Origin: Psococerastis gibbosa
Taxonomy: Eukaryota; Arthropoda; Insecta; Psocodea; Psocidae
Direction of reading: 5' to 3'
Assembly: GCA_963971405.1 (NCBI GenBank)
Contig: OZ020484.1
Span: 7,564,001 to 7,628,000, forward strand
Length of the DNA: 64,000 nt
The notes under the pieces are model-generated. The model saw nothing but the letters and a program-made list of their open reading frames with translations, searched no databases and was not told the DNA's origin. Of the stretch, positions 29,663 to 50,392 are shown piece after piece. The translations under genes and the position numbers were made by a program. Numbering within the stretch: position 1 is the stretch's first letter; each line of letters begins with the position of its first letter.

Positions 29663-31237
29663 TCATCCCTTATGTCCATCGAGCCGGAATCTTGACGATA
29701 CTATTTCTGGAAGTAAAGCCGCTTTGTAAAACCTGCAACAAAAGTTTTGTTTCAATGCGAATAGATAACAAAATTAATATTTACTTGTCCAGTTTATTCG
29801 GCAGCATTGTTGACTCCCAGAAACCTTCGTCGCGAATGACCTCTATGACATGCTGCCAATTGGGAGTGTATAAGAAAAGATAGCACTTGCATTTTTTTCA
29901 GAATGTTAAGTTGACCTTGAATTTGGTAATGCCATGCTCTTTTTTTTAATACCGTCATATTGGTATCAGTGGTGAAGTGTATAGTCTGCAATGAAACCAA
30001 AAGTTGTCAGTGATATGTGATCAGGGCAAACAGCCAATTAGGCTAAGTTAAAAACTTGTTTGGCAGAAATATGTATTGTGGATTTGTGGGAGATATTTCG
30101 TTGATATTCACAACAAATTATTTGAAAATTATAGACCATAAATGACAAAAATCCCAAAAGATCTCCTTAAATCCCCCCATGGAACTGTAGCCTGTAGGAA
30201 CAATGTATTCCGGTGAGGTAAAAACCTTCAGTCAGATAGAGGGCTTATCGTGAAAGACTGTAGAAATGAAATGTAAATGAACCAATTAGGAGTAAAAGGT
30301 TTGTTAATCGAAATTGTTCCGAAGTATGTAAAATACCAACCTTCCTCTGGACTACTGCGTCGATTAATGATGTTGTATTGGCTTTTGTAGCCGCATCCAA
30401 GCATTTGATATCCAAAATGGCATCCTCACCAGATATCAGACCATCTGAAAGCAATAATTGTAGTAATAATCTACAGCAATTCCATTTTGCTTTCCTATTT
30501 ATACGTTGTATAAAGGAAAGCTTTGTGATGGTCAAAATGTTCGAATCCGCAATTTCAACGGATTTACACGTTTAAACATTTACCTGGAGATGCGGCTAAA
30601 AACGGATTCCTCTGAACTACGAAGAAGCCACAAGTTGCGACATTTTTGCTGTATGTTCGGCAAAATGTCTCTCTCGCAATGGCCTCATTTCGCTGTCCGA
30701 ATTTCACCGCTGCAGAGTTGACAACGTTAAAAAGAATGGAGAAGACGGTGTTCTTTGTGGAAGTTGTCTGACGCAAACTCATGACTTTCCCAAAATTGGT
30801 TGCAGTGAGTCTTTTTCTCCTTTCTGTAATCCAATCATCAGAAAGACTTTGGTCCACCGTTTTTGCTTGCACGTCGTCAGGGTCGGATTTTCTGCAATGC
30901 AAGGAAATTAGTCATAATTGTAGCAATTACACTTCTTGCATTTAAGGGTTAGGAGTTGGTTCAAAGAACATTCACTACTACCTATCATGCAAGGCACATC
31001 AGCCCGGATTCTACTGTTCCTTCATTACAAGTACGCACCTTAATTCGTTAACGTGCAATTCCTTTAAAATATTCAACTCATCAACCGGTATAACAGGGGT
31101 TTCCTCGACATTGCCGTAGTCCTCGTCAGGGCCAGTTTCTTCCTTCCGGACTTATTTGCGACCGAATAAAAGTCGACGAGCTCTGGTAACATGTACGCGC
31201 TTGCGCATACGTGCACCATACACTTTCGTTCTACTTC
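29663..31237 (-). pseudogene. exons 9-13: linker and YqaJ nuclease part
   Basis: Exon 9 (31039-31237) gives GSRTKVYGARMRKRV and later GPDEDYGNVEE, with a TAA inside. Exon 10 (30584-30891) reads QSLSDDWITERRKRLTATN and ends at LAASP. Exon 11 (30341-30444) supplies the rest of the catalytic core, DGLISGEDAILDIKC, where D and the DIK acid-lysine pair match the PD-(D/E)XK motif. Exon 12 (29785-29985) has the conserved WHYQIQGQLNIL and then shifts frame in a run of seven A. Exon 13 reads FYKAALLPEIVSSRF and runs into TGA at a small ACATAAGGG duplication. Confidence 0.75.
30491..30577. repeat. fragment of the 0.75 kb repeat in intron 10
   Basis: ATACGTTGTATAAAGGAAAG, GTGATGGTCAAAATGTTCG and CAACGGATTTACACGTTT are the left end of the family. 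It lies just beyond the exon 10 donor at 30583-30582. Confidence 0.75.
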
Positions 31238-31936
31238 CTGCAACAATAAATTGTAAATACAATCCGCCAGGAATATTATTGTTAGTGCAGTCGTGAAACG
31301 AACATAACAAAATTAAAGGGGTTGCAATAAAAATAGCTACAATGGCTTAAGGACATACCCGGTGTTTTTCCTGCAGAAACACTACTTGCCATGGCCTCTA
31401 AGAAATTAGCATCGTTAAATTGGACAACTGCAGCTTGGACTCTAGCATTATAACATCCACGTGAGCCGTTGAATATTCCCATTCCTAAAATAGAAGATAC
31501 ATAGTTTAAATTCGGCAGCATCAAACCATCACCCTATGTGTTAGGAACCGATTCAAAAACATAACAAATGGAAACAGTGTGAAAAATAAATTACCGCTTA
31601 TCATCTTGTTGGCAACGCTATTAAGCTGCTCGCAAATATTGCTTTCTACGTCCAGAAGCAGTGACTCCGCATGATGCGCAATTCTAGCCATCAACATGAT
31701 CACTTCTACAGCAAAACCTGACTTTTTCATATTATTACCGATGGAACTTCCTTCATCGTCCTTTCTCTTGCAATAGTAAGGCCTTTAAATTAATTGACCG
31801 ATTAATTATTCATATTGACCTTTTATATAATTATATACTGCGAGTTCTGGTTTTTATTATCCTACTGCCTGCTCTAAATACTCAATAAATGATAAGTTGT
31901 TGTTGTTTCTAACGCCTGCTTTCAGCATTTCTGCTT

Positions 31937-32260
31937 TAAGCAACCCTGTCAGCCTGGCGGGGGGAGTGAGTCTGTTTGATAACTTGAGGCACCCAAAGGG
32001 CAGACTCTATCACCTCGGGGAAAGGCGAGTTGACTAACAGGGTGGACCTCCTGATTATAGTGGATTCCGAACCACTTGGGGAACATGGTAAAGTCACACG
32101 ATTAGACCGGAGGTGACCAGGACTCGACTTATACTGCCTAAGTGCGTTATCAATTCCCACCAGGTTCCCCTGCCAACGCTGTGCACACTACCGTTTGCCG
32201 CAGTTTGAAACATGCTCTGTTCTCCTGCATTCATCATGGTAAGGCCGTTCGCACCCCTTA
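31937..32260 (-). repeat. dispersed repeat in intron 6
   Basis: Second copy of the 2995-3190 repeat: CCTCCTGATTATAGTGGATT, GAACCACTTGGGGAAC and GGAGGTGACCAGGAC. The segment GCCGCAGTTTGAAACATGCT appears twice here, at about 32197 and 32281. Confidence 0.55.
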
Positions 32261-32433
32261 GCTTGTTCATTATCGCTTGTGGCCGCAGTTTGAAACATGC
32301 TCTGCTCTAATGGAATCAACATGGTAAGGCCGTTGGCAATAACAAATATAATAATAATAAATGGTAAGTGAACAATAATAAAACAGTAAATTCTACCTTG
32401 CTCTCACAATTGCTGTTGTAACCGATTTCTTAA

Positions 32434-32828
32434 GGCGCGGTTTCCACCGACCTCAAAGTGCAAAATACACATACGGTGACGTGGCAGCAGATATCATTAA
32501 TAAAGGCGGGGTTTCCACCGACCTCTCAATGCAGAATGTAAATGACATTGACGGAAAATTTTGTTTTACTCTATGCCATAGTTAAAATTGATCAATGATC
32601 ATAGAGTAAAATCACAAACAAACAAACTAAAATTAAAAAATGGGGTCATGGGATATGTTAAGTACAAACATTTTAATAGATTTCTATAAAAAGAAAAATT
32701 CAAATTTCCGTCAATGTCATGTGCATTCTGCAATGAGAAGTCGTCGGAAACCCCGCCTAAGTCTTGAATGTCTGCTACCACGTCACCGTATGTGTATTTT
32801 GTACTTAGAGGTCGGTGGAAACCGTGCC
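32434..32828. repeat. fold-back MITE, long subfamily, in intron 6
   Basis: A 395 bp element, ends GGCGCGGTTTCCACCGACC and the near-complement, TAA on the left and TAG on the right. It carries GGTGACGTGGCAGCAGA and the inverted TGTCTGCTACCACGTCACCG, and the ORF start MGSWDMLSTNILIDFYKKK at 32640. Confidence 0.8.
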
Positions 32829-33379
32829 TAGAATAAATTCTCCTGCTAGGAACATTTCAAATTAGTACTTTCATACTCACAGACATTTGCTGTGACACCC
32901 GAAAATATGTTCCGGAGCGTTCATAACATCTCTCCGGAGCCCGTCAATGCGCTGAGCGGTTGTGCCAACAGTTTCTTCAGCCTTCCGTTGCCCCGATTGC
33001 CCTTTATTGCCTTCCGGAAACGAACCATATTAGATTTTAGAGCATTTCTTTCCTCGATTGGCACAGTATTAAGTGTTCAAGAAGGCGCGAAGGTGGCCAT
33101 CTAGGTTACGGAGAAGGTGGTTGCGACATTCCACTTTTTTTATCACATTATGAGGTCCATAAGGCTGGAAGACCTGGAGCTTCTTCATCACACTTGAATC
33201 ATTGTCCCCTAAAAAAAAAAACATTTTCCATGAATTATATTTGTAATCAAATCTAGAGATTTCTTACAATCTTACGACTCTAATTTTAATAAAAATAAAA
33301 ATCATTATTCTTCGGTTGTGCTACTGTGTATTGTATTTTCAACTGAACGTATATAGTCCACGCATAGATTTTAATAATA

Positions 33380-35030
33380 CAACCCAAAGGCAGAATAGTT
33401 CGCACACCTGAAAAATTTACAACTCCTATTTTTAAAAATAATAATAATAATGTTATTATATAATATTATAAAGAGTACAAGCTATCACTCGATAGAGGAC
33501 ATGATTAAGTATATCTAGCTACATTTACTTCAAATATAAGAAGTATGGTCAGTTCAGAAAAAAAATTTCTTTATCCGTTCGTGAGGCATATTAGTTCGCA
33601 CACTTTTACTGAACCCCCTTTCAGCTAAATAAAGGCCAAATTTTACTGCAGATTGGAAAATCTACACTTCTGTTTTTATGTTTAATACCTGAAAAGTGTT
33701 GAAAAATATTGTAAAAATAACATCTACAAAAATGCCTAGTGAAAAACCAATTTCTGAAGAGACAAGGAAGAAGATCATATATCTTCACCAAACCGGCGTA
33801 TCTGCGAGGGACATTGTTCAGCAGCTGTTTCTACCACATTCAACAGTGCAGTCAATTATCAGCCTGTTCCGTGGAAAAGGCAGTAGCCATCCTAAACGAA
33901 AAACAGGCCGAAAAACTCCAATTTCTCTGAGAGAACGCAGGCACCTGAAGACCTTAATTCTTCTAAATAGGCGCGGAACGTTGAAGGAAATCACTGAAAA
34001 GTGGAGGGAGGCTATTAGTGAAGCTGTCTCTATAAGAATTTGCCGAAGGGTCATGAAGGAAATAGGTTACAAATTGTTTTCAGCGAAGAAAATGACATAA
34101 ACAAAAAATAACAAAAACTTAGAGTTTTAGAAAATGACCGCGCTTTCAAGGCGTCAAACACGAAGAAGGTTACAATGGGCTAGAAACTTTTCAAAATGGC
34201 CCAAAAACCGCTGGGAAACAATTATTTGGTCCGATGAGTCACGGTTTGTTCTACATATGGGCAATCAAGGACCCGAAGTCATCAGGATGAAGCCTGAAGC
34301 TTATCAGCCATAATGCATAAAACAGACAGTCAAGTTCCCGACCAGCGTAATGATATGGGGATGCTTGAGTTCGAAAGGAGTTGGTCACCTGTACTTCGTA
34401 GAAGGCACTGTCAATGACCCTAAGTATTTAGAAATTCTAAACAGCCATCTTTTACCGTCGAGAAGTGCCCTACATCCCGCTGGCAATTTTGTATTTCAGC
34501 AAGACTTGTCACACTACAAATTCTGCTAAACAGTGGTTTGGTGAAAAAACGATTCAGTTTTTACATGGGTAGCTAATAGCCCAGATTTGTCACCAATTGA
34601 AAACCTTTGGCTCATCATGAAAGAGGTAGTAGCCAAAAAGAGCCCGAAGACAAAGGATGAACTGAAGAAGGCCTTCCTAGATGTGTGGAGTGGTATTACA
34701 CCAGCGATGTGCAGTAATGTTGTTTCTTCAATGCCCAAAAGAATTGCCGCTGTTATAAAAAACAAAGGAGGGGTATCGCAGAACTGATGGACAGTTCACT
34801 TTGACTGTGCGAACTATTACGCCTCCCAAGTTGTTGAAACAAATATTAATCCTGAATTGTTCATGTGTATTATGTTTGAAGTTTATGTTGCTAGATGTAC
34901 TCTATCATGTCCTCTATCGACAGACAGCAAGTATTCTTTATAATATTATCTATTAAGTTGATTATTATTTTTTTTTAAAACAAAGAGTTATAAATTTTTG
35001 AGGTGTACGAACTATTCTGCCTTTGGGTTG
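33380..35030 (+). mobile_element. Tc1-like transposon, full length, TA TSD
   Basis: A 1651 bp element flanked by TA at 33378-33379 and 35031-35032. The inverted ends start CAACCCAAAGGCAGAATAGT and extend for about 180 bp. Inside each arm a second motif (GAGGCATATTAGTTCGCACA at about 33583; complement near 34800-34830) resembles the outer one (AGAATAGTTCGCACACC). This is the IR/DR layout of Tc1 elements such as Sleeping Beauty, with two transposase-binding sites per end. Inserted in intron 5 of the minus-strand transposase/YqaJ gene. Confidence 0.92.
33732..34786 (+). pseudogene. Tc1 transposase, broken by stops
   Basis: Starts MPSEKPISEETRKKIIYLHQ, a paired-type helix-turn-helix with ARDIVQQLFLPHSTVQSI, followed by a GRKTP linker and a second DNA-binding region to about 34090. 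The catalytic D, D and E motifs are seen in separate segments: WSDESRF (about 34230), FQQDLSHY (about 34495) and SPDLSPIENLW (about 34580). The ending KGGVSQN runs to TGA at 34784. In-frame stops lie after FSAKKMT (34099), after EAYQP and after KFC, so this copy cannot make a full transposase. At about 350 codons the length is normal for the family. Confidence 0.9.
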
Positions 35031-35067
35031 TAATACAAGATAGCGAACTCCCATGCTCTCTGTAGGG

Positions 35068-35266
35068 AGTCCACGCAAAATGAGAAAAGTATGGACATGG
35101 AATGTTTTGATCCTGTGCAACACTGTAAAAATATTCTTTGCACAATTTTTGTTATGCCTTGCATCCAATGCAACAAGGTAACGCAAAATGGTGCAAAGAA
35201 TATTTTTATAGTGTTGCACATGATCAAAACATTCCACGTCCATACTTTTCTCATTTTGCGTGGACT
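35068..35266. repeat. fold-back element in intron 5
   Basis: About 199 bp, arms starting AGTCCACGCAAAATGAGAAA and complementary over roughly 85-90 bp around a short loop near 35155-35180. No TSD is clear. It lies about 15 bp beyond the exon 5 donor (35280-35279) and about 40 bp from the Tc1 end. Confidence 0.8.
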
Positions 35267-35280
35267 ATAACATTGCTCAC

Positions 35281-35777
35281 CAATGAGACGGCTGTATACC
35301 AAGCCATGCATTTCAATGCTAAGGCGGAATCCTTCCCGGACTATGTCCGCCTCCATTGCAGTTCTTGCTTTGCTTCGGCTCCAGTTATTGTAGCAGACGT
35401 GTTGGCGGATATTTTGGCCCTTGTCCCGATCGCACACATAGCAGTATTTGTTGCAGATAACAAATAACAACAAATAATACTTTTTTGGTGCAATAACCAA
35501 TTATCGACGCCATTCCACTCAGCGAATTATATTTCGTCTTGGAAGAGCGCTTCGCCCAAGCCCCATCTGCTACCACTGTTATGAAAGGAGTGCCATCTAA
35601 AAAGACATCACCATTTACCAGTGCCAGCCTTTTTTCTTCTTCTCCAGCCTCCTTCATTGACTGCAGTAAATTGCATCTAATGGAGGTAGATACATTACAT
35701 GCCACTTTAATAAAAAAAATTTCACACATAAGTGTTCATCGATGCAAAAATTGGCGCAGCGGCAGCGTAGCCAACTC
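35281..35777 (-). pseudogene. exon 5: transposase catalytic segment
   Basis: Begins at an acceptor (TTTTAG before 35777) as GVGYAAAAPIFASMN, then loses frame. It recovers as MKEAGEEEKRLALVNGDV and GTPFITVVADGAWAKRSSKT, the block with the first catalytic Asp. After IIGYCTKK it shifts again, with NKYCYVCDRDKG and ARTAMEADIVREGF in another frame. It ends YSRLIG at a GTGAGC donor. The CxxC-type cysteine cluster of the paralogue is partly kept. Confidence 0.75.
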
Positions 35778-36080
35778 CTAAAATTAAATGGATTGATTAG
35801 AAATGCCAAACCAAATGAACAATGCTTGATCTCAGCAGGGAGGGATCGCAACTGCAGCAACTGGTAAGAGCCCACAATTTGAAAGACGGGAGAGGAAAGA
35901 GTGAAGTACATTCATAAGCAACAATATCTGCGCTGTGAGTGGTGAAGATTAATTGTGGAGTAATAAATAAGAGCACAGCTTTTTATCCTACTGCTTGCGT
36001 TTACCGGCGACAGAAGGATTTCATATAGCCTAGTTTTATGGAGATACAATTGTTAATGTTGACAATTCAAACAAACATAC

Positions 36081-37072
36081 CGGCTGAAATTACACCATTG
36101 ACCAATTTTACATCGACATCTTCATCCCTTGGTTGCAGTTCGTAGTGTTTCACAATATTGCAGTTTCGGCATTGAAACTGCAATTGGGTTGACACAATAC
36201 TGCGCGTCCTTATTTGTACCTCTTTAATAAATTCCATATTGGCAAAGCTGCAGTCAAATGGAACATGGAAGTCTCCTTGAATTTGACTGAATAGATGGGC
36301 CAAGTGAACTATTCTATTGCCGGGTAGTTTGCCAACTTAAAAGGAGAAACAACCAGTTTTATTAACATGAAATATACAATAGAAATGTTGACAATGTAGA
36401 GAAATAATTAAGTGGCAGGGATCATATATGAAATAAGTACAACAAGAAGGGGGGGGGGGGGGGGGAATTGGGATTGGTTCAGGTTTTGTCGTTGACAGTA
36501 ACACTTACCTTCAAATCGAGTAACAGCTTCAGTTGCACAAGTATCCATTGCCGAGTATTTCCCAGGGATGCACTTAGGCGTTTCTTGGTCCGACCCAAAT
36601 GCTCCCATTGGCGGAGTCTGAGGGCCGACTGAAAGAAATGAAATATGTAAGCCTGATTTAAAAAATACGACAAATAGCATTAGTTTACTTCATCCACACC
36701 CTGAAATACCAACAAGTGGCGAACTCTTTTACCACCTAACACAAACTCCTACCGAACGGCTCAAATGTCCGCAAGGACGCAGCAGCTTTCGTTATGTTTT
36801 CTCATCACCATCATTCTGTACGTGCAATGAGACACTTACCGGAAATGGGCGTAAAAATTGCTGTTGCACACGTACAAGCGTCTACATGCAGACATTCTAG
36901 GCATTTACGCTCAGGTGTTTGTTGCCCTGTTGATGGTGAAGGTTGCGGCTGCTCGACAATGACATCACCTTCCAGACCGCGACTTTCGACATCAACATGA
37001 AGATCTCTGCTAGTCGTTGCAGCAGAGTTTGATTTTAAAATCACACCTTCCCTCTCGAGGAATCGATCCACT
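36081..37072 (-). pseudogene. exons 2-4: N-terminal region of transposase/YqaJ gene
   Basis: Exon 2 (36840-37072) reads VDRFLEREGVILKSNS, matching VDNYLKREGVILTSTP in the paralogue, and ends PISG at a GTAAGT donor. Exon 3 (36509-36628) reads VGPQTPPMGAFGSDQETP and ends RFEG. Exon 4 (36081-36335) reads KLPGNRIVHLAHLFSQIQ, a CRNC motif and LVNGVIS. All three are open and joined in phase 1. A long G run lies in intron 3 at 36448-36465. Confidence 0.78.
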
Positions 37073-37479
37073 CTAAAACAAAAACATTACAAAATTAATA
37101 ATTGCATATACGATAACATCATGTAAATTGTACACATACTGTACATAAACATAAGTCCGCGACGTCATATTTGCTACTAACCGCGGGGAGTCATCAATCA
37201 ATCAATCAATCAAACAATCGTGTATCCATGCAATCCATGGACGCACCTCGACCTCGTCATAAAACAAAAAAAAAACTACTCGACGAAATAAATAAGTCAC
37301 GAAATATTTAACAAAATTCGTGAACGACATAAAACCACGTCACATTTTTCATTGTCTGGTTCCCCTGAAGCAAAAGCCGGTTACTTATATTTACAAAGTT
37401 TTACAATACAATCAATCCCAACAAAAACACTCCGTGTAAAAACAGGCCAAGTTCCTAACACCGATCTTAAAAAAGGTTT

Positions 37480-39005
37480 AGCCAGTCAATTCTTCATTCT
37501 TCATCACCAAAACATCAAGGAAGGCCAACTGGTTATTGTTTTCTTTTTCCACGGTGAACTGGATTCGTGGGTGAATTGAGTTGATGTGATCCAGGAATTT
37601 CGTCAGATTCTCCAGACCATGATTCCAAACAACAAAGGTGTCATCTACGTATTGGAACCAGTTTTTGGGCTGCTGTGTCTAACGCCGTTTTTTCAAAAGA
37701 TTCCATGTAGAAGTTGGCAACCACCGGGCTAATGGGATTCCCCATTGCAACGCCACCCAGTTGTTCGCAGAAGGTTGGATTCCATTGAAAGTATGTAGTT
37801 GTCAGAACGTAGTGGAACAAAGACGTGACGTCATCTGTGAACTTCTCCTTTATAAGCTCCATAGTTTCTTTGATTGGTACCAGAGTGAAGAGGGAGACGA
37901 CATCAAAACTCACGAGCAGGTCATCGGGTTCCAGGTGTAGGTCCTTCAGTTTTTCAATGAAATGCGTCGAGTCTCTTATGAAAGAATCTCCGGTTCCTAC
38001 ATGTATCTGTAGCAGCTTCGTCAGGTATTTTGCCACGTCGTATGTAGGAGATCCTATCGCGCTCACAATCGGACGTAGTGGCACATTCTGCTTATGGATT
38101 TTCGGGAGACCATACAGCCTGGGTGGTAATGCTTCTGATTTTACCAGGTTCCGCTTATCCTCGGTTGGTAAAGTGGAATCTTTGACCAGTTTCTTTGTTT
38201 TCGCCAGGATTCTTGATGTGGGGTCACGGCTGAGCACTCTATAAGTCGTTGGGTCCAGCAGGTCCAAGATATTCTTCTGGTAATCAATGGTGTTCAAGAT
38301 AGCTGTAGCATTCCCTTTCAGAACAACGATGTCCTTGTTGTTGTTTAAATCCTTCATGGCCATCCGTTCCTTGCTCGAGATGTTGGATTTGGGTGGTTTG
38401 GCGTGCTGTAGTATTCTGGCTGACTCACGGCGTATTTTCTCGGCAGCAGCTGGAGCCAAGAGCCTTACTGAGGATTCAATGTTGGCAATAATGTCCTCCG
38501 TGGGGATGCTCATAGGAACTACTGCGAAGTTGCCTCCTTTTCCCAGAATTGCTCGTTCGTCGTCAGTAAGCTGGTGATTGGAGAGATTGATGACCATCCG
38601 GTTTTTAACCAGGGTGGGCGGCGTCGGCTTGGTAAGCAGAAGGCGTTCCAGCTTCATTTGGTGGCGTTCCGTGGTCATCGCCATCTGCGTTGACATGGAT
38701 GTGTGTGTCAGCCTGTCCACCTTGCCCCAGTCATGCTGGCTCAGCTTCCCACTTAATTCCAGGTGAAGAGTGAGTAGACCTTTATCCAGTAGGGCCAATT
38801 ATTTCCTGGTGAAATCGATCCGTTCTCGTACAAGGGCACGTTCTGTCCGGTTATAGATACGTTTACAGCTAGCTGAACGCAGGTTTCGTTTCAAACGTAG
38901 AAAGGTAGGTACAACGTCATTATCCCTACATCTTAGCAGAAAAATCAGTGAACACAGGAGATGGGATTTCTTCTTCCGGAGAGTTTCCAGGCGTCAAATT
39001 TGGTA
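37480..39005 (-). pseudogene. Penelope-like element reverse transcriptase, broken
   Basis: The minus-strand frames show an N-terminal region (LRKKKSHLLCSLIFLLRCRD) and then the RT: ALPPRLYGLPKIHK, VPLRPIVSAIGSPTYDVAK, VSFDVVSLFTLVPI, GGVAMGNPISPVVANFYME and YVDDTFVVW (motif C). These are the signature blocks of Penelope-like RTs rather than LTR or LINE RTs. The copy is broken at about two places and incomplete. It lies in intron 1 of the minus-strand transposase/YqaJ gene, in the same orientation. Confidence 0.85.
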
Positions 39006-39009
39006 AAGG

Positions 39010-39420
39010 CGTAGAGCCGTACAATGTAACTGCAAATGCTTTCACGGCCGGAGTCAAATGAAGAACCAGTGTTCAAGCCTACGAAACAGCTCCAAAGCAT
39101 GATAAGATCAGCCAAGGATCTGAGAGACCCATTATCATCAGCAGGTGTGAACCGAATTTCTTACTCTTGTGGTGAAGTATACATAGGTACGACTAAACGC
39201 AGCGTAAATACGAGGATAGAAGAACATAAACGAAGCTGCCGCCGTCTACAACCGGAGAAGTCCGCGATTGCCGAGCACGTACTTACACAATCTGGACACA
39301 CGGTGCACTACAAACAGGCGACTGTCTTGTCATGGGCTACTCCATATTTCCCCAGACTACACAGAGAAGCTATTGAAATATACATGCACCAACACAATTT
39401 CAACAGAAAGGCTTAAAGGT
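39010..39420 (+). pseudogene. Penelope-like element GIY-YIG endonuclease end
   Basis: Plus-strand frame: NRISYSCGEVYIGTTKRSVN, TRIEEHKRSCR, EKSAIAEHVLTQSGH and REAIEIYMHQHNFNRKA. This is the C-terminal GIY-YIG domain typical of Penelope-like elements. It is oriented opposite to, and head-to-head with, the RT fragment at 37480-39005, so the two cannot form one reading unit. Confidence 0.85.
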
Positions 39421-39579
39421 GAACAAACTCTGGTATCCGGCGCTGAACAAAACAACAACAAAAAGGATGACCTCGGCCAATTGGGAAAAACAAGGTAATG
39501 GTAATTCCCCAGAGGAACAACATTTAGAATAACTTTTGGTAAAAAACTTGAAAAGAAGAAAGATTACATGGAGAAGGAA

Positions 39580-40432: not shown

Positions 40433-40519
40433 TAGCAACTAAAAGCCTAACGAAGCTCTTCATTTCCTCATAATTTATTAATATTAATAGACAATAAATG
40501 CAAAATTTCAAAAACTCAC

Positions 40520-40629
40520 CTGCGCAAATCGAGCTCACGTCTCACTTCGTCTGGTCTCTTTCCACGAAAACCACGTTTGTATTTACCGAATTTTTTCTGG
40601 TACACCTTCGCGGACTTTCTTCGTCCCAT
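40520..40629 (-). pseudogene. exon 1 of the 13-exon transposase/YqaJ gene
   Basis: Starts MGRRKSAKVYQKKFGKYKRG and ends in phase 2 at a GTGAGT donor. The paralogue starts MGKFKGQKEYEKNRRTRAYR and its first intron lies at the same place and phase, after the Glu/Leu-rich end of a basic segment and before VD. The basic stretch could act as a DNA-binding or nuclear-entry segment (inference). Intron 1 is about 3.4 kb and holds the Penelope-like, Tc1 and LINE fragments. Confidence 0.75.
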
Positions 40630-40992: not shown

Positions 40993-41400
40993 GGCGGCTA
41001 TTCCATCTGTTAATAATCCGTCATTTGTACATTAAAAATTGATGAGATGTTTGTTTTAGGCGCCCATTCCACATACGTACAACGTCAATGAAAATTATGA
41101 AATTGAAGGTGGTAGCAGAATTTTTAGTATGTCTTTAATGTCTGCTACCACCTTCAATTTCATAATTTTCATTGACGTTGTACGTATGTGGAATGGGCAC
41201 CTTAAGGAGACTATTATGTAGATACTTAACTTATCAATTATATATTAAGTTAAAATATGGTGGAGACTTTTTATTGATATCTCTACATATTATAACTTAA
41301 TTTATAATAGAAAAGTTAATTGTCTACATAATAATCTCCTTAAAACAAATATCTTATCAATTTTTTAACGCACAAATGACGGATTATTGACCGTTGGAAT
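40993..41400. repeat. fold-back MITE, GGCGGC subfamily, with nested MITE
   Basis: Left end GGCGGCTATTCCATCTG after TAA; right end runs to GACGGATTATTGACCGTTGG, where the last bases are lost. The arms surround AAGGAGACTATTATGTAG. A second fold-back MITE at 41059-41201 lies in its left arm. Confidence 0.8.
41059..41201. repeat. fold-back MITE, 143 bp subfamily, nested, TSD TTA
   Basis: Near-perfect palindrome from GGCGCCCATTCCACATACG; core GAAGGTGGTAGCAGA and its inverted partner. TTA at 41056-41058 and 41202-41204. Same subfamily as 52486-52628 and 55915-56057. Confidence 0.9.
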
Positions 41401-42045
41401 GTAATGTAAATGATTTAGATCTTTAACTATTAATTTTCAGTCTGCGTAGAGATGGTTTAGGCTTCAACAGCTTGTACCCTAAGGGCTAAGTAATGTAGAT
41501 TTGGTATAGTCTCCAGGATATATTGCCTAGTAGGCTTATGTTGTTAATTAATAAAAACTAAGATGAAAAAAAAACTATATTGACAGTCAGAATCAACAGG
41601 CACGAAGTGTTCTGCAGTATATAAAAAGATAATAAGTTAAAATGTTATTGAAAATAGATCGCGCCTCACCGTTGAGTCACCGGCACAAGCTATAAGTTGT
41701 GATTCCACGACTTATCTCCCCGCAGTCGACGCCAATGATAATGACGTCATAATGCCCCGGCCTGGCCTGGCCTGAACGGGCCTGAGATTAGTGCTACTCT
41801 TGAAATAAGAGACAAGCGCAGACATCTCTAAATGTAAACATTTAACATACACAAAATCAGGGCTGCCAAATGAATAGAGTTCTTGCGTAGTGACGTCACA
41901 GTAAGAGGGCGGAGCTAACAGCGCATGCGTGATTGCGAAAATAATGTAAACAAAATCAGCTGTTCGGCCATTGGAGGATATGAAATGCATTGAGCGCTAT
42001 TGATTTTTACAGTTTTAAGTTGTTATTATTCATATTTCTAGCGTT
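41401..42045. other. intergenic; possible regulatory stretch before the THAP fragment
   Basis: No gene. AGTGACGTCACAG at about 41889 contains the CRE-like palindrome TGACGTCA. GAGTTCTTGCG at 41877-41887 has an inverted partner, CGCAAGAACTC, near 43613-43623. Confidence 0.35.
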
Positions 42046-42466
42046 ATGGTCAAGCATTGCTGCTATAGCTTGTGTAATAGTGATAGCCTACACCAAGACA
42101 GAACACATATGAGAGAGGTCCGAATTATATCGTTCCCCAAGCCACTGGAAAAAATTAAGAAATGCAAGTGGAGGTTGCATCTTTGGGGCAGAACGAAGTC
42201 CACAATATTTAAAGTTACAAAATACACATATATATGCATGGCCGTGCCCAGGAGGTGGTCCATGGAGTCCGCCCCCCCCCCCGAAATAAATTTCTGCAGA
42301 TAAACCTGTATGGTTTGAAGAATTTATCCATTAATTCATTAATAAATTACGAAAAAAAATGTTTGGACCCCCCCCCCCCCCCGAAATCATAACCTGGGAA
42401 CAGCCTTGTATATATGTTCATCCTAGTGGGCCAACAAAAGATTTTCCAGATCCAATAGGACAGTCG
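42046..42466 (+). pseudogene. THAP-domain coding fragment split by a hAT MITE
   Basis: MVKHCCYSLCNSDS opens a C-x4-C cluster after an initiator Met. RIISFPKPLEKIKKCKWRLH gives the conserved FPK and a Trp, and KVTKYTYIC reaches the third Cys region. The element at 42237-42408 then intervenes. After it HPSGPTKDFPDPIGQSIE matches the PT..(N/F)PDPI tail of THAP zinc fingers, in another frame with a few bases missing. THAP domains bind DNA and occur in host factors and in P and Kolobok transposases. No transposase core was found downstream, so the parent gene is unknown. Confidence 0.75.
42237..42408. repeat. hAT MITE inserted in the THAP fragment, perfect 8 bp TSD
   Basis: A 172 bp element with ends CATGGCCGTGCCCAGG and CCTGGGAACAGCCTTG. 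Identical TATATATG copies lie at 42229-42236 and 42409-42416. C runs lie near both ends. Confidence 0.88.
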
Positions 42467-42474
42467 ATTGAGAT

Positions 42475-42630
42475 CATGGCCGTAGCCAAGGGCGAGTTCA
42501 ACCTCCTCCCCCCCCCCCCGTGATGATACTAAATAGAATCGGATTTTGAGAGGAAAAATATAAACTACTATGTAGTATCCAATTAAATTTCTGAACCCCC
42601 CCCCCCCGAAAAATCCCGGCTACGGCCTTG
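42475..42630. repeat. hAT MITE after the THAP fragment, 7/8 TSD
   Basis: A 156 bp element of the 58338-58505 family in the opposite orientation: CATGGCCGTAGCCAAGG to CCCGGCTACGGCCTTG. Flanks ATTGAGAT (42467-42474) and ATTGGGAT (42631-42638). Confidence 0.85.
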
Positions 42631-43050
42631 ATTGGGATCAATAATGTATATTAATATATATCGTCGTTACTTTCCAGTGGCCATGGCCGTGCCCAGGTGG
42701 GTGGTCCATGGGGTCCCCCCCCCCGTAATAATTTTTCTTATGTAAACCATGTAAACCTGTATTGCTTGATGACCATTAATTCAATAATAAATTACGTTAA
42801 AAAAAACTTGGACCCCCCCCCCCGAAAAATCCTGGCTACGGCCTTGATTTGGATCAATAATGGATATTAATATATATCGTCGTTACTTTCCAGTAGCCAC
42901 GGCCGTGCCCAGGTGGGTGGTCCATGGGGTCCCCCCCCCCCCGTAATAATTTTTTTATGTAAACCTGTATTGCTCGATGACCATTAATTCAATAATAAAT
43001 TGCGTTAAAAAATGTTTGGACACCCCCCCCCCCCCCGAAAACAAAAGCAA
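42631..43050. repeat. tandem duplication of a C-rich MITE unit
   Basis: Two direct units of about 210 bp (42631-42846 and 42847-43050). Each starts ATTTGGATCAATAATG-like, carries TATATCGTCGTTACTTTCCA, then the CATGGCCGTGCCCAGG element and a C run. Units differ at scattered bases and in C-run length. Confidence 0.75.
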
Positions 43051-43705
43051 ACGGCCTGTGACCCTATGAAAATTAACTGCTTTGGTGCTCAGATACTAAA
43101 TTGAATTCTAGTGATAGTATTATGGAGAGACAATAACCCTTTTTACTCTACTAATATTTACAAACAACATGATAGGCTAGCGTGTCGACAGCCCAGCCGA
43201 CTAGGCTATATTTCATGGTAGTTATGCAGTAAAGTTGTATGGTTATGGTAATAAATCATTACTAATACATTAATTGTAATATGTATAAGCAAGCTTAGGC
43301 TCATATACCCATTTAAAAATCTGTTCTGCCCTCGCGGAAGTATCACAAACAATGAAATAAAATTAGATACACAAGTAAATAATATTTTTTGACAATTATT
43401 TGCTGCTACTTTGCTGTAATTTTTTGTCAGTACCCGCGCAAGTATTGAAGGAACATATAAATAGCACTAATTTGCCATTTAAAAGCGAAAATTTCTTAAA
43501 ATAAAATAAATTTCATTGGAAAGCCTATACACTCCATGTTAAAATGAGGGGGTGATGTCCGAGAATCAGGGGTACCCCCTCCCTTTTCGACAGCCCGCCA
43601 TCTTTGTTTTACCTGCGCAAGAACTCCATTCTGCCGTATTCCTCGGAAATTGTTAAATAGTTCCTCAGAATACCCCGGAATTTTTTTTAATGTTGGTCCC
43701 CTTTA
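43051..43705. other. intergenic, no gene seen
   Basis: No supported gene. Confidence 0.45.
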
Positions 43706-43843
43706 GATGCTATTCCACCAACGCCAATAGTGATAGTAAATGTAGTATTGACGTGGTAGCAGACATTTTTAGACTGTCTTAATGTCTGCTACCACGTCAA
43801 TACCACATTTACTATCACTATTGACGTTGGTCGAAAACGCGCC
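43706..43843. repeat. fold-back MITE, AATAGTGATAGTAAATG subfamily, TSD TTA
   Basis: A 138 bp palindrome with GTATTGACGTGGTAGCAGAC and its complement at the centre; TTA at 43703-43705 and 43844-43846. Sister copies at 13057-13197 and 55643-55781; a half copy at about 62145-62230. Confidence 0.85.
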
Positions 43844-44284
43844 TTATAGGCCTATATGATTTTTTTTCATTTTTGAACACCAAGGATTTTACAAATTAAA
43901 CTGGATATAAAGTTTGTTTTCATGTAGTATGCTAAGCATAGGCGGATTTTTATTATTTTTGAGAGTATCGACTGGTGTACGTCACCATGCCTACTTCACC
44001 AGTTTTCATCTTTTAATCTTGCTAATTTTCAGAAGCTAGAGCAGTATAGTCTAAGGCTCCTAAGCTACACCCACGTATACCATAAGTAGGTACCTTTAAT
44101 TGTGGCAAATTCAAAATTGGCAGTTGACAATTAAAAATACTTGGAGCGCTGAGAAAAGCATTATAGGGGGCTGCGTAACCTTCTGGAGACTGGAGGGGGG
44201 GGGGGCTAGGTTGTTTGGGTTGTCATTATCAGATCTAAGCTGTTCTCCGTGAATCCAAGCCATTAATGTTATGGTAAACCTGAA

Positions 44285-44690
44285 TTAGTGAGGTTTTACA
44301 CATTTTATCCCCTGGAGAAGGGGGCGCAGTCTCCCTGCAGAAAAACAATGATAAATGGGCCCAAATTAATGAGGTTTTTCGCATTTTATACCCTGGTGAT
44401 AGGTGGGCCCGGGGGTCTCCCCCGTAGAAAAAAATTGATAAATTAGTGAGGTTTTACGCATATTAAACCCTGGAGAATGGGGGGCAGGGGGTTTCCCCCG
44501 GAGAAGGAAAATTGATGTATATAGGTCCAAATTAGTGAGGTTTTACGAATTTTGCAAGCAGTACAGTTGAGATTGTACCGACAAATAAACCTACCACTGA
44601 GGGGGCCCGGGGGTCTCCCCCGAAGAAAAAGCTTGAAAAAATAGGTCTGAAATAGGCCTATTGGGATCTTAAGCATTTTGAGTAATACAT
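44285..44690. repeat. degenerate minisatellite, about 80-90 bp period
   Basis: GAGGTTTTACRCATTTTA blocks start at about 44290, 44370, 44450 and 44536, separated by CCCTGGAGAAGGGG and GGGGGTCTCCCCCG-type blocks. It shares the GGTTTTACGCATTTT and GGGTCTCCCCC wording with the array at 26400-27290. Confidence 0.65.
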
Positions 44691-45313
44691 TTTTGTGAAA
44701 ATAAGTCAATGTGATGATTTTTTCATGATATCTTTCATGTAAAATAAGCATACCAGTATCAAGAATTAATTCCCCTTTCGTTATTGTGGATACTATGCCT
44801 TTCGCCTCCATAACGTCTTTGTCACCAGAAATCCTGGGGGGGGGGGGCCTGCGGGCTTAGCCTCCCCCCCCAGGACCCCCCTATTTACGCCAATGCATGT
44901 ATGTATAAACTTACAAACCTTTCTTGAAATAGGTTTGTGATGGAAATAATGCAATAGGCTCCCATGATTTAATCATTTGATTTGACTTTTTTCTCACCCT
45001 CACACTTTTATAGGCTGATATGAAATTCAAGGCATCTTATTTCAGGTTCATCTAAGTTTTATTCATTATACAAAGCTGAAGCTACTCAAGCTAGTAACTT
45101 TTTAAAAACATGCCGAAATCTAGATTAATTTTTAGTGCGCTAGCGGCGGGAAATCCACGACAGCTAAGTCGTAATAAATAGCTGACAATTAACTGTCATA
45201 ACTGCCATAAGATAACTATTGAGTTTCATTTGGCGCGAAAATTTTAGGCCGAAATATGGTGGACTTTCGATTGGTCCCCTGCTTCAGCATGCAAATATAT
45301 ATAATTATATATA
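44691..45313. other. intergenic, no gene seen
   Basis: G and C runs at 44836-44872. No supported gene. Confidence 0.45.
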
Positions 45314-45741
45314 GGTGCCCATTCCACATACGTACAACGTCAATGAAAATTATGAAATTGAAGGGCATTTCAATTTTACTCTATGCCATTGTTAAAATTG
45401 ATCAATGATCAATTGATAATAGAGTAAAATCACAAACAATGAAACAAACAATCTAAAATTAAAAAATGGCGTCATGTGATATGACAAGTACAACTATTTT
45501 GATTGATTTCTCTAAAAAGAAAGCATTTCTGTATAAAAATTATAATAAGGATTAAATAATAAGGCGACGAAGAAAACAAATACAATTTCAAGAAACAAAT
45601 TTCAAAAATTTGGCGCATACGCTTCAATTGACAATTGTCAATTTTTGAAAAACATATGGAATGGCCCCCATCCATGAGAAATTGAAATGTCCTTCAATTT
45701 CATAATTTTCATTGACGTTGTACGTTTATGGAATGGGCGCC
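45314..45741. repeat. fold-back MITE, 428 bp form, TSD ATA
   Basis: Ends GGTGCCCATTCCACATACG and its complement, ATA at 45311-45313 and 45742-45744. The outer arms are those of the 143 bp subfamily, but the interior carries the block TGATCAATGATCAATTGATA and an ORF start at 45466. A related copy, inverted, lies at 53043-53394. Confidence 0.85.
45466..45555 (+). pseudogene. MADF-like ORF start carried by a MITE
   Basis: Reads MASCDMTSTTILIDFSKKKA, then FLYKNYNKD and a TAA stop, 29 codons. The ILIDFxKKKxFLYxxYNKD pattern resembles the start of a MADF (Myb/SANT-like) DNA-binding domain, where a leucine-isoleucine helix is followed by a P/F-LW/LY and a Y-K-D step. PIF/Harbinger transposons encode a Myb/SANT-type second protein, so this is probably a relic of the autonomous parent (inference). 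Other members carry MASWDMLSTNILIDFYKKK. Confidence 0.5.
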
Positions 45742-45836
45742 ATAGATCAATGTGCAAATCATATGGATAATGCGCCATACCGGCAACTTGGCAAATATAA
45801 AAACCGATAGAAGCGCCACTTGTTATTTATAAGGCG

Positions 45837-45900
45837 CCCATTCCATTGACCGGCTAGGGCTATTTCCAAAACGGTGACGTGGTAGCAGACACTTAAGAGT
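45837..45900. repeat. one end of a long-subfamily fold-back MITE
   Basis: GGCGCCCATTCCATTGACCG through GGTGACGTGGTAGCAGACAC; the rest is missing. Confidence 0.65.
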
Positions 45901-46484
45901 GTACAGGCCGTAGAATGGTGTTTGGACCTAAAGCAATAGGGCCTTTTAAGCATGTTTAATTAATGCCTTTATTACATATCTACCATGATAACAAAGGTAA
46001 AGATGTGGGGTATAATATTAACGATTTACAATTTTGATATATTTAGTCACTACGGAGAAAAAAATTGTTAAAAAAGGCCAAAAAATAAAACAGAACAGGG
46101 AATTTGAGATCTTACCGTTGGTAATGTGGCACTACAACATATATTTAAGGCAACTAAATTACAATATCTAAGAAATTAATGAATCACATTTTACTAATTT
46201 CCATTAATAGCATAATAAATAAATTATTTATATTATCTGTTTACATTTCAAATAAGATGGCTGAGAACAGAAAGCTCATCTGTTGTGAAACCAAGCACAA
46301 TCGACGTGAACAATGTTGTAGGTAATTTCCAGAAGATGTCGCACTGATTTATATGTCGCAGTTTTGGTTTTGTTCTGTTACGTTGTTAGTATTGCGTTCA
46401 GAGCTTGTAAACAAAGTAATTTGTTAACTCTCGCATTATTTCATATTTTATGATTTTGTCCATTGTTTTCTTGGCGTACTGAGA
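45901..46484. other. upstream region of the plus-strand transposase/YqaJ gene
   Basis: No repeat family recognised and no terminal inverted repeat seen that pairs with sequence after 50392. Any promoter must lie here, but no TATA-type element at a convincing distance can be singled out. Confidence 0.4.
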
Positions 46485-49400
46485 ATGGGTAAATTTAAAG
46501 GCCAGAAGGAATATGAAAAAAATAGACGGACGCGAGCATATCGGAAAGGGTTTAAAGGCGTAGCACCCCATAAAAAAAAGGAAATGGAACGGTTAGTACA
46601 TGTTGTTATAAGAAATGTAGTACGTATCTGTAATTGCTATTTATGTCTAGATAGATCGACAGCCAATTTAAAGAGGATAGTGATCTTTCGTTCTAAGTGA
46701 GATTTGTATGTGGGGACCTCATTTTTATTGTAACCAGTCAGGAGCAACCATGGGCATAGGCGGCTATTGCATTTGTCAATATTCCCACATTTGTGCATCA
46801 ATAATTGATGCGATTTTTCTTTGAATGAGACTATTATGTAGATACTTAACTTATCTATTATAAATTAAGTTATAATATGGTAGAGACTTATTATTGATGC
46901 ATAAATGAGGGAATATCGGCAAGTGGAATAGCCGCCATATCATTTATAAACATACATGTATCAATCTTGGGAGACTTTGTGCCTTGGTTACCTGGTCACA
47001 AGCTTTGTTTGGGGGAAAAACCTACTTCCAGACTGATTCTGATGAATTTAGTGTTTTAAAAATTCATTCAATTTTTTTATCCAGAGAGAAAGAAGTGATT
47101 GTTACAGAGTTACAAATTTCGAATTGTTTTCTCTTTAATAGGGCTCTATATTAGACAGGTATTGTCATCCGCCACATTATATCCATTATAAGTCTGGTGT
47201 ATAAGCCAAGCATTGGGTGTTTACCTATTTATTTTTAGAAATTTATCGTTGTTTATTTATTATTATTTAAAAAAACGTGCTACCAATTAGGGAAGTGTTT
47301 AATAAAAAAATACTAAAACGTGTATTAGTTTTTTCAATATTTCTCAACCTCTTACTTTTCTTACAATACTTACCATATAGGAATTAGGATACAACATGGC
47401 GGATGACAATACCCGGGTATATAGTGCCTTACTCTGAAATTAGCATTTGCATTTGAGCAGTAAATATAGTGAAATTGAAACAAGTAGACTAAGTGTTGTT
47501 CGTCACTACATTTACGAGTCCTATTATTATATTACGATCGGGCGTACCCCAGGCAATGCAAAGTGGAAATATCTAGCGGCTAATCCTTCCACCACCGAAA
47601 AGAGACCAACGACTTAAACAGTTCAACGACCTTTGGGTCAGCACCGACCATTGCGTCTGATTGGCAGAACACTGGGCCCAGAAACTGAGTCTCTACCTCG
47701 GAGACGAAAAAATAACTACAATATATACAATGTGTATCCCCAATTGTGATTGCATGAACAGTAGAGTATAATCAAACCATGGTGTAAGCTTATACAATAT
47801 TCACTGCTGTTATATTTATGTCTAATACTTTTTTGTAGGGTTGATAATTATCTTAAAAGAGAAGGTGTTATTTTAACATCCACGCCAGACGACGTATCTG
47901 ACAGCCTTAATCTTGCTGGCCCAATTGCTATGGAGGAAGAGGGCCCAGCTGATGAGACAGTCATTAGCAATCAATCCATTGGGGCCGATGAGCCCAGCCC
48001 ATTTCTTATGGAGGAAGAGGACCCAGTTAATGAGACTGTTGGCAATCAGTCCATCGGGGCCGATGAGCCCAACTCAATTTTGCCAACTGGTACTTTACCA
48101 GGCAACAGGATTGTTAACTTGGCTCACCTCTTCACCCAATTAAAAAATGACGTGCACAAACCATTCATGTGCACTATTGCTGACATGGACTTCATAAGGG
48201 AGGTGCCCATAAAAAAGCACAGCATAATGACGGTGCAGTTGCTATTTCAATGCCGCATGTGCAACTCCACTAGAAAATACGCCCTTCAGCCTAACGATGA
48301 AAACATCGAAGGTAATTTGGTGAACGGCGTGATATCTGGTGGTGTGGGCTTTGCAGCCGCTGAACCAATTTTTGCTGCGTTGAACATCCCTTTCATGAGT
48401 GAGAGAAAATTTATGAAAGAGGGACTGAAAGTGTCCGAGCGAATTGGAGCTAGCCTTTCTCAGTCCATGGCTGCAGCTGCGGCTGAAGAAAAACAGTTAG
48501 CTTTAGAAGCTGGAGACGTCTTGCCAGATGGCACTCCTTTTATTACAGTTGTGGCTGATGGAATGTGGGCTAAGAGGTCATATAAGACGAAATATAATTC
48601 GTTGTCGGGGATGGCGTCAATTATTGGGTACAGGACAAGGAAAGTTGTTTTTGTGGGCACGCGTAATAAGTTCTGCTCCTTGTGTTGTAGAGAAAAAAAA
48701 ACGGGGAAGAAGGCGCCCCACAAATGCTTTAGGAACTGGAAACGTTCCTCAACTGCCATGGAAGCTGATATAATTGTTGAGGGATTTCGGCGGAGCATAC
48801 AGACGCAAGGCATTGCTTACACGAGGCTCATTGGTGATGGGGATTCAAGTGTTATGAAGCGTCTATTAGGGGCACAGCCGTACGGATTTACCGTTGCAAT
48901 AAAAAAAGTGGAATGCCGCAACCATTTACTCAGAAATATGGACGGCCACTTGCGTGGGTTTTTGAAGGCGACTAAGTTCCCCATAGCAGAGCGAAAAGCC
49001 TTAGCATCCAACGTTTTCCGCTTTCGCCAGGCTGTGAGAGGCGCGATTAAGCATTGGAAAAATGCAGCTGGCCTTTCATCAATTCGTTGTGAGGGATTGC
49101 ACAAGGACATTTTAAATGCCCCTAAACACATACTTGGTCTTCATCATGATTGCCTGGAGTACTATTGCAAAGAGAAAGGCGTAAATGAGTCCAGCTTGTA
49201 CAATGTGATGACAAAATCTGGCCTAGCTGATGATTTGATAAGATTGATGACCAGGGTCGCACACCATGCTGATTCACTCTTGCTTGATGTTGACAGCAAT
49301 CTATGCGAACAACTCAATAGCCTAGCAAATAAATTAATTGGTGGCAAGAGAATTTTTTATGGTGCTCGCGGAAGTTACAACATGAGAATGGAAGCCGCAT

Positions 49401-50392
49401 GTCTTCAATTTAACGAGGGTGCCTTTTTAGCAGATGTCGCACGGCGTATTTGTAACATTTGAACCCCAGGGAGTAGAACGAAGGGATACGTTTCACGGGC
49501 AAAATTAAGAACGGAACATAACAGGCGACGGCGAGAACTGTTTAAAAGAAGCAAACCGACTCAGTGGAAAGAAGAAGCAGGTCCAGATGAAGATTACGGG
49601 GACGTTGAGGACATTCCAGATATCCCAGAATCGCAGTTGCGTCAGAGTAAAGAGCGTTTCCTAGAAGAGTTGAGTTCTGTTGATCCGGAAGAATTACAGT
49701 TGAGGACAATGGGTCAAGACCTTTCGGAAGATTGGATGGTGGAAAGGGTGAAACGCCTCACTGCTTCAAATTTTGGTAAAGTGATGTGCTTAAGGCCAAC
49801 GACCTCAACCCGAAACACTGTGAAGTCGATCCTGTACAGTGATATTTCACGGACTCAAGCCGTAAAGTTTGGGAAAACGAACGAGGATTTGGCCCGGGAA
49901 ATATTTTGCTGCAAAAACGGCAAGAAAGTGAAAAAATGTGGTCTCTTTGTTGATCCCACGTATCCCTTTCTCGCTGCTTCGCCCGACGGATTAGTTTGTG
50001 GAGAGGATGCTCTACTGGAGATAAAATGTTTGTGGGCAGCCACAAAAGCTGAGACGACGTCGCTGGCAGATGCTGTCAGGCAGAAGAAGACTGCAATGTT
50101 GAAACTTGGCGAAAAAGGTGTCGTCCAGCTTAAACCAAAAAGTTACTGGCACTACCAGATACAGGGGCAGCTGAACATTTTGAAGGTGAATAAGTGCTAC
50201 CTTTTCATATACACGCCTCATTGGCAAGAGGTCATTGAAGTTACCAGGGACCAGAGTCTTTGGCGTTCAGTCATGGTGCCAAAACTCGAGAGGTTTTACA
50301 AGGAAGCCTTATTATGCGAAATTGTTTCACCACGGTACACCCTTGCAGAGCGGACTAACGACATCAGACAGGCCTTTCTAAGTGTTTTTTAG
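46485..50392 (+). CDS. Mutator-like transposase / YqaJ nuclease gene, one intron, one in-frame TGA
   Basis: Exon 1 (46485-46591) encodes a very basic start, MGKFKGQKEYEKNRRTRAYR. Intron 46592-47838 has a GTTAGT donor and TTTTTTGTAG acceptor. Exon 2 (47839-50392) then runs open for 540 codons to a TGA at 49460-49462 and on, in the same frame, for 309 codons to TAG. Before the TGA is a Mutator-like transposase region: VVADGMWAKR (Asp about residue 276), cysteines in NKFCSLCC and HKC, and IGDGDSS (Asp about 369). After it is a YqaJ-type PD-(D/E)XK nuclease: RLTASNFGKVM, AASPDG, LLEIKC and WHYQIQGQLNIL. The paralogue has Lys where the TGA lies, so the stop is derived. It may be a single nonsense change in one 885-codon protein, or give two proteins. 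No terminal repeats or TSD found; domestication is possible. Confidence 0.82.
46759..46936. repeat. fold-back MITE in the intron of the plus-strand gene, TSD ATA
   Basis: A 178 bp GGCGGC-subfamily member, GGCGGCTATTGCATTTG to CAAGTGGAATAGCCGCC; ATA at 46756-46758 and 46937-46939. Confidence 0.85.
47142..47434. repeat. inverted-end element in the same intron
   Basis: The left end GGTATTGTCATCCGCCACAT (from about 47157) and the right end, whose complement reads GGGTATTGTCATCCGCCATG, are inverted over about 45 bp. The right tip reads ATATAGTGCCTTA. A related copy lies at about 60340-60608. Confidence 0.65.
47930..49462 (+). CDS. transposase portion as an uninterrupted frame
   Basis: The part of exon 2 from the first internal Met to the TGA, 510 codons. 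It begins with a 27-residue near-repeat, GPADETVISNQSIGADEPSP against DPVNETVGNQSIGADEPN. It continues through LPGNRIVNLAHLFTQLK, a CRMC motif, NLVNGVISGGVGFAAAEPIF and the catalytic blocks, and ends CLQFNEGAFLADVARRICNI. If translation started only here, the 36-residue basic start of exon 1 and 30 residues of exon 2 would be lost. The match of those residues to the paralogue argues that the true start is in exon 1. Confidence 0.8.
   Translation: MEEEGPADETVISNQSIGADEPSPFLMEEEDPVNETVGNQSIGADEPNSILPTGTLPGNRIVNLAHLFTQLKNDVHKPFMCTIADMDFIREVPIKKHSIMTVQLLFQCRMCNSTRKYALQPNDENIEGNLVNGVISGGVGFAAAEPIFAALNIPFMSERKFMKEGLKVSERIGASLSQSMAAAAAEEKQLALEAGDVLPDGTPFITVVADGMWAKRSYKTKYNSLSGMASIIGYRTRKVVFVGTRNKFCSLCCREKKTGKKAPHKCFRNWKRSSTAMEADIIVEGFRRSIQTQGIAYTRLIGDGDSSVMKRLLGAQPYGFTVAIKKVECRNHLLRNMDGHLRGFLKATKFPIAERKALASNVFRFRQAVRGAIKHWKNAAGLSSIRCEGLHKDILNAPKHILGLHHDCLEYYCKEKGVNESSLYNVMTKSGLADDLIRLMTRVAHHADSLLLDVDSNLCEQLNSLANKLIGGKRIFYGARGSYNMRMEAACLQFNEGAFLADVARRICNI
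49463..50392 (+). CDS. YqaJ-type nuclease portion, in frame after the TGA
   Basis: It opens TPGSRTKGYVSRAKLRTEHN, a basic linker, then an acidic stretch (GPDEDYGDVEDIPDIPES), then the nuclease fold of the lambda-exonuclease/YqaJ type. There is no ATG near the linker; a separate protein would have to start at an internal ATG such as the one in LRTMGQDLSEDW (about 49709). The continuity of frame and of similarity to exons 8-13 of the paralogue shows that it was once joined to the transposase part. Confidence 0.8.
   Translation, partial: TPGSRTKGYVSRAKLRTEHNRRRRELFKRSKPTQWKEEAGPDEDYGDVEDIPDIPESQLRQSKERFLEELSSVDPEELQLRTMGQDLSEDWMVERVKRLTASNFGKVMCLRPTTSTRNTVKSILYSDISRTQAVKFGKTNEDLAREIFCCKNGKKVKKCGLFVDPTYPFLAASPDGLVCGEDALLEIKCLWAATKAETTSLADAVRQKKTAMLKLGEKGVVQLKPKSYWHYQIQGQLNILKVNKCYLFIYTPHWQEVIEVTRDQSLWRSVMVPKLERFYKEALLCEIVSPRYTLAERTNDIRQAFLSVF

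Follow-up and report, generated by a model that had tools for sequence, protein, structure and literature searches.

Two old paralogues of a KolobokE-like transposase gene, with one and with twelve introns, in Psococerastis gibbosa

In a stretch of 64,000 nucleotides (nt) from the psocid Psococerastis gibbosa (assembly GCA_963971405.1, contig OZ020484.1, positions 7,564,001 to 7,628,000; below, the window) two copies of a gene were compared which encodes a transposase followed by a YqaJ nuclease. One is read on the plus strand and has a single intron (the plus copy), the other is read on the minus strand and has twelve (the minus copy); the two genes stand in opposite orientation with their starts about 6 kb apart. 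Judged from their sequences they are old paralogues, neither of them a recent retrocopy, and both fit the KolobokE-like DNA transposons, a lineage already in print. The simplest account of the intron contrast, held here with a probability of about 0.55, is one recombination of complementary DNA (cDNA) with the gene in the lineage of the plus copy. Attention had been drawn to the pair by an earlier interpretation made from the letters alone (the sequence-only reading).

Structure and age of the two copies

The plus copy consists of two exons:
46485-46591, plus strand: exon 1 (alignment and codon comparison)
46592-47838, plus strand: intron, phase 2 (site and phase as in intron 1 of the minus copy)
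47839-50392, plus strand: exon 2, PF20700 transposase, then YqaJ nuclease, with an in-frame TGA at 49460-49462

Splicing at the intron yields one frame with a single internal stop. The one intron of the sequence-only reading was thereby borne out, and its 885 otherwise continuous codons were not, since exon 2 is broken by the TGA. The first part of the predicted protein matched PF20700, "Mutator-like transposase" (Pfam name Mutator), with an E-value of 1.2e-78, and the second part YqaJ with 3.6e-15; the nuclease part also matched the RecE-like exonuclease family (2.1e-17) and the solved exonuclease chain 3syy (8.5e-8). A tblastn search of the window with the plus protein found one other copy, on the minus strand, the remaining matches having E-values of 0.25 or worse.

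The exons of this minus copy (40629-29656) were placed by frameshift-aware alignment of the plus protein with the spliced minus DNA; evidence beyond the alignment is given in brackets:
40520-40629, minus strand: exon 1
36840-37072, minus strand: exon 2
36509-36628, minus strand: exon 3
36081-36335, minus strand: exon 4, start of the transposase domain (PF20700 match below cut-off)
35281-35777, minus strand: exon 5, transposase, frameshifts at 35733 and 35462 (exon-piece domain search)
32881-33208, minus strand: exon 6, transposase, frameshifts at 33074 and 32986 (exon-piece domain search)
31595-31782, minus strand: exon 7, region of the catalytic E (motif check)
31359-31484, minus strand: exon 8
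31039-31237, minus strand: exon 9, TAA stop at 31154
30584-30891, minus strand: exon 10, YqaJ nuclease (exon-piece domain search)
30341-30444, minus strand: exon 11, D-x-K of YqaJ (motif check)
29785-29985, minus strand: exon 12, frameshift at 29892
29656-29732, minus strand: exon 13, with an uncertain 3' end and perhaps a frameshift at 29680

The 13 exons and GT-AG introns which had been proposed for this copy were confirmed. All 12 introns are GT-AG, they range from 52 to 3447 nt, and their phases are, in order, 2, 1, 1, 1, 1, 2, 1, 1, 2, 1, 0, 2. The splice sites are strong: of the 6 positions of GTRAGT the donors have on average 5.25 in agreement, compared with 3.26 when every GT in the region is taken; five or more positions agree in 11 of the 12 donors and in 7.8% of background GTs, and the acceptor tracts contain 67% pyrimidine against a background of 50%. 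Neither the donor mean nor the acceptor mean was reached in any of 20,000 random draws. While GT and AG had been used in placing the junctions, the other consensus positions are independent of the placement. When nine exon pieces were searched singly, four matched PF20700 (three over the cut-off, one below), one matched YqaJ over the cut-off and four gave no match.

With at least five frameshifts and a TAA stop the minus copy is a pseudogene. Besides the breaks listed above, two more at 36575 and 36541 cancel each other within a poorly aligned stretch. No splice pair suggestive of hidden extra introns was seen at the breaks on reading the sequence, no separate test having been made. As the break at 29892 lies within an A run and that at 35733 near a T run, reading errors are possible there; the TAA at 31154 is outside any run. 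An assembly join of unrelated pieces, named by the sequence-only reading as a possible refutation, is unlikely because exons 1 to 13 stand in their proper sequence and correspond to successive parts of the plus protein. The disruption of both copies had been overlooked in that reading, as had the existing name KolobokE.

The first intron is common to both copies in site and phase, as had been claimed, and splits, in phase 2, the same arginine codon before V-D. A more general statement, that the intron phases are conserved, applies to intron 1 only; the other introns have no counterpart in the plus copy with which a phase could be compared. Identical residues occupy 483 of 860 aligned codons (56%), and comparison of the plus with the minus codons gave a saturated pS of 0.857 and a pN of 0.296. 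With this protein identity and saturated silent sites neither copy is a recent retrocopy, in line with the far drift of the proteins noted before. A recent processed retrocopy is ruled out by the saturated silent sites together with the one retained intron, the DNA-transposon ends described below and the lack of a poly-A stretch, none being seen by eye after the stop codon of the plus copy. Because silent differences are saturated and amino-acid-changing ones are not, both lineages were probably restrained for most of their history, with the breaks coming late. The D, D, CxxH and E of the transposase, its CCHC finger and the nuclease motifs are kept in both copies; the D, D, E and nuclease residues are those which we take to be catalytic.

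The mobile unit around the plus copy

The plus copy is enclosed in a unit with the following parts:
45897-52390, plus strand: mobile unit (KolobokE-like element) with the plus copy (inverted ends, TTAA on both sides, joined flanks corresponding to an intact repeat)
45893-45896: left TTAA target site copy
52391-52394: right TTAA target site copy
45897-45913, plus strand: left terminal inverted repeat, 17 nt (15/17 identical to the right end)
52374-52390, minus strand: right terminal inverted repeat, 17 nt (15/17 identical to the left end)
51902-52083, minus strand: inner inverted copy, on the right side, of the left end (68% identity with 45893-46061)

The ends read GAGTGTACAGGCCGTAG on the left and, reversed, GAGTGAACAGCCCGTAG on the right. 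At up to three mismatches the end sequence has five matches in the window compared with 0.24 expected, and the right end is double, with an inner and an outer repeat. The unit splits one short repeat, the two parts of which flank it left and right. When the flanks were joined at TTAA they matched an intact copy of the repeat at 53932-54083 with 98% identity over 153 columns, across the junction, the intact repeat reading TCAA at the insertion site. The joined junction is spanned by fifteen further matches with identities of 77 to 91%, several of which come from both arms of a single repeat copy; one match, 53040-52914, belongs to the second arm of the very repeat that was split. In 300 dinucleotide shuffles of the flanks no TTAA-anchored pair equalled that of the unit (14/16). 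In a TTAA-anchored scan of the actual flanks the true pair came sixth, after five pairs from arms of the short palindromic repeats described below. A 10-bp duplication, ACACTTAAGA and ACTCTTAAGA, also flanks the unit with 9 of 10 positions matching; the exact TTAA is the simpler reading of the insertion than a 10-bp duplication with one mismatch. Anatomy and empty site, both sequence features, demonstrate an insertion of the unit at TTAA within a short inverted-repeat element.

The long inverted repeats 45312-45745 and 53039-53396, tried as alternative ends of the element, have copies elsewhere and were set aside as separate short palindromic repeats. An element of 904 nt (50458-51361), 66 nt past the stop codon of the plus copy, has related ends (CAGTGTACAGCCC) and is bordered left and right by TTAA. 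It is without a listed open reading frame of 120 amino acids; segments from its interior are repeated near 9, 15, 19 and 22 kb and within intron 10 of the minus copy.

Kolobok elements are described as having TTAA duplications and 5'-RR ends, and KolobokE as having a CCHC finger after the first catalytic D (PMC9587614). Both copies of the window contain a DDE transposase with CxxH between the second D and the E, the CCHC zinc finger after the first catalytic D, an H/C-rich stretch (a predicted zinc finger) between CxxH and E, and a lambda-exonuclease-like YqaJ domain downstream of the transposase. TTAA at 45893 and 52391 and ends beginning with GA, that is 5'-RR, belong to the plus copy. On account of these shared motifs, and of the TTAA and 5'-RR ends of the plus copy, both are filed as KolobokE-like.

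Surroundings and introns of the minus copy

Terminal repeats had been suggested as a check, and what was found for the plus copy was nearly lacking for the minus copy. The plus ends were sought near it and not found, and a scan for inverted repeats around it returned G runs only. A TTAA-anchored scan gave one pair facing the minus copy, at TTAA 28922-28925 and 43270-43273, alike at 13 of 16 positions. This pair equalled the best of 200 shuffles, and in a recount one in 300 dinucleotide shuffles and one in 300 single-base shuffles did as well; it has no purine start and no extension (17/40). It may represent decayed ends or chance, and counts weakly against a minus locus free of an element. Directly 3' of the minus copy, at 29094-29615, lies a long imperfect palindrome of 522 nt which is 74.5% self-complementary.

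The introns of the minus copy contain six repeat- or element-like stretches, while no such insertion interrupts the alignment of the exons; the repeat scan covered the minus introns, and the continuity of the exons is taken from the protein-DNA alignment. Intron 1 has a reverse-transcriptase fragment (37641-38798, minus strand; RVT_1 match below the family cut-off), intron 5 a Tc1 element with inverted repeats and a Sleeping-Beauty-like helix-turn-helix (33375-35035) as well as a hairpin, intron 6 a short repeat and another repeat, and intron 10 an interspersed-repeat fragment (87/139 nt), which was taken to have inserted into an intron already present. To the eye, a plus-strand open reading frame in intron 1 (39030-39416) resembles the GIY-YIG part of Penelope-like elements; it had no Pfam match. 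The presence of repeats in introns and not in exons is consistent with a gene, be it of an element or of the host, which was spliced over a long period.

A host gene is the subject of one alternative, according to which an immobile KolobokE gene rich in introns was domesticated, with selection maintaining both transposase and nuclease, and was later lost, the minus copy being its relic and the plus copy an ordinary intron-poor element. The missing plus ends, the restrained amino acid change and the confinement of the six insertions to introns would all suit such a gene, and Kolobok transposases appear to have been repeatedly domesticated in Xenopus (PMC6004289). The termini of an old copy may, however, have decayed, restraint is equally to be expected of an element lineage which is still transposing, transposase and nuclease motifs are both kept as in an element, and the copy is now broken. 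The weak TTAA-flanked pair also stands against domestication, the odds of which were lowered slightly because so few shuffles reached it. Domestication is judged unlikely, though it is the least improbable of the alternatives considered here.

Origin of the intron contrast

The reading preferred here assigns both copies to one family of KolobokE-type class II DNA transposons, in which a DDE transposase would cut and paste at TTAA and the YqaJ nuclease would be part of the same protein. The ancestral gene was probably intron-rich. The minus copy would be an older resident, with a spliced 13-exon transcript, a frame kept for most of its history, repeats entering its introns and finally decay. 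In the plus lineage a 5'-incomplete reverse-transcribed cDNA may have recombined with the gene, removing the eleven downstream introns and leaving the first. Since a DNA-transposon unit encloses the plus copy, this loss would fall within the element lineage.

The eleven introns missing from the plus copy form one adjacent block, with only the 5'-most intron kept, and the reverse-transcriptase model of intron loss predicts both adjacent loss and a bias to the 3' side (PMC3652778). This pattern favours loss through cDNA. One event may suffice where gain would require eleven. None of the eleven junction codons of the missing introns shows an alignment gap; introns 2, 3 and 12 lie near gaps or poorly aligned sequence. 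Among the three explanations offered by the sequence-only reading an old, partly spliced retrocopy comes closest, with the difference that the plus copy is not a simple retroposed copy, being part of a DNA-transposon unit. The other two, massive intron gain and a host gene which seeded the element, are less probable.

Several points weigh against loss through cDNA. Studies cited in PMC3652778 did not find the 3'-side or the adjacency bias. The direction of change was not observed, as relatives which might serve as an outgroup were sought in viral contigs and in bacterial and archaeal genomes and none were found. A pattern scan gave one chance match only, in a phage-like contig, a second pattern scan gave no match, and PF20700 was absent from the one record (0/1) and from the control genomes (0/14) searched for it. 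The introns of the two copies share only short chance matches, and the homology of intron 1 is for this reason based on position and phase. Phase 1 is over-represented among the minus introns (7/12, P about 0.03 against a phase-1 share of 29%), an excess not needed in an old set of introns.

This excess would be more at home in a history of massive gain, in which the minus lineage acquired eleven introns from a one-intron ancestor, and all seven phase-1 sites split a codon starting with G, as insertion into proto-splice sites would give. A G at the exon end is, on the other hand, also part of the ordinary splice consensus, and gain requires eleven events. The minus introns share only matches of 13-20 nt and are unlike copies of one introner, leaving introner-type gain unsupported. 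Massive gain is considered improbable, a little more so than domestication. Repeated losses and gains may also have left the old KolobokE subfamilies with different numbers of introns, no single event then accounting for this pair. With silent sites saturated there may have been many events, and six Ginger1 _HM families differ in having 0 to 4 introns (PMC2836005); eleven adjacent missing introns are nevertheless simpler as a single event, and such a mixed history appears the least probable of the three alternatives to cDNA recombination.

Other features of the window

A short inverted-repeat element of about 330-400 nt is present in several copies, most with ends like GGCGCCCATTCCA (2182-2570, 6572-6959, 20420-20745, 32433-32830, 53398-53731, 54944-55325 and others); one copy is split by the plus unit and one lies in intron 6 of the minus copy. 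Palindromic repeats with the ends GGTGCCCATTCCACATACG were seen at 41055-41205, 45313-45743, 52482-52632, 53041-53395 and 55912-56070, some of them flanked, by eye, by 3-bp A/T duplications, which we take to be as in Harbinger-type short elements. Open reading frames of a likely host gene, a relative of Rab5 exchange factors with a VPS9 domain and DUF5601 (barely over the cut-off), occupy 61479-63196 of the minus strand; a piece of it had its best matches among solved VPS9 chains and weaker ones among Rab5 exchange factors. Rfam and transfer RNA scans of the window gave nothing.

Significance and comparison with known systems

A DNA transposon family with copies of one and of twelve introns offers a clean test of intron loss and gain, as many independent copies may be comparable per genome. 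The window further contributes a clearly bounded KolobokE-like insertion, together with its empty site, to a lineage which the literature searched names in a single paper, and if domestication were true, two fates of one transposon family could be compared at one place. A transposon type already known is present here in two states, and until relatives are compared its intron contrast is a good, if ordinary, subject for studies of intron loss.

In the literature searched the name KolobokE was found in PMC9587614 alone, no description of the intron content of known KolobokE families was found, and there was no direct description of YqaJ paired with Mutator, transposase, Kolobok or DNA transposons; three papers name YqaJ in passing, one of them (PMC13289751) as a filter word for transposon-related families.

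Among described systems KolobokE (PMC9587614) resembles the present copies in its DDE/CxxH/CCHC transposase, the downstream lambda-exonuclease-like nuclease, TTAA and the purine 5' end, here GA. The 12 introns of the minus copy and the double right end of the plus unit are differences from it. MuDR and other Mutator-like elements have target site duplications of 8-11 bp, and the plus insertion probably differs from them, being more simply explained by an exact TTAA than by the 10-bp duplication, which requires a mismatch. Their likeness lies in the Pfam Mutator domain found here and in CxxH, which is common to both superfamilies (PMC9587614). ISL2EU of the PHIS superfamily likewise combines a DDE transposase with a YqaJ nuclease within a single element (PMC9179366), with a separate nuclease reading frame and a Harbinger-like transposase, whereas here PF20700 and the nuclease share one frame, interrupted by TGA. 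The sequence-only reading is fair in remarking how rarely a DNA transposase has so many introns, although there are precedents. Ginger1 elements and the host genes derived from them are multi-intron transposases with introns common to element and host genes; their transposase is another one, the intron-bearing elements have 1 to 4 introns and the derived host genes 6-8 (PMC2836005), and Coe1 is described with eight exons.

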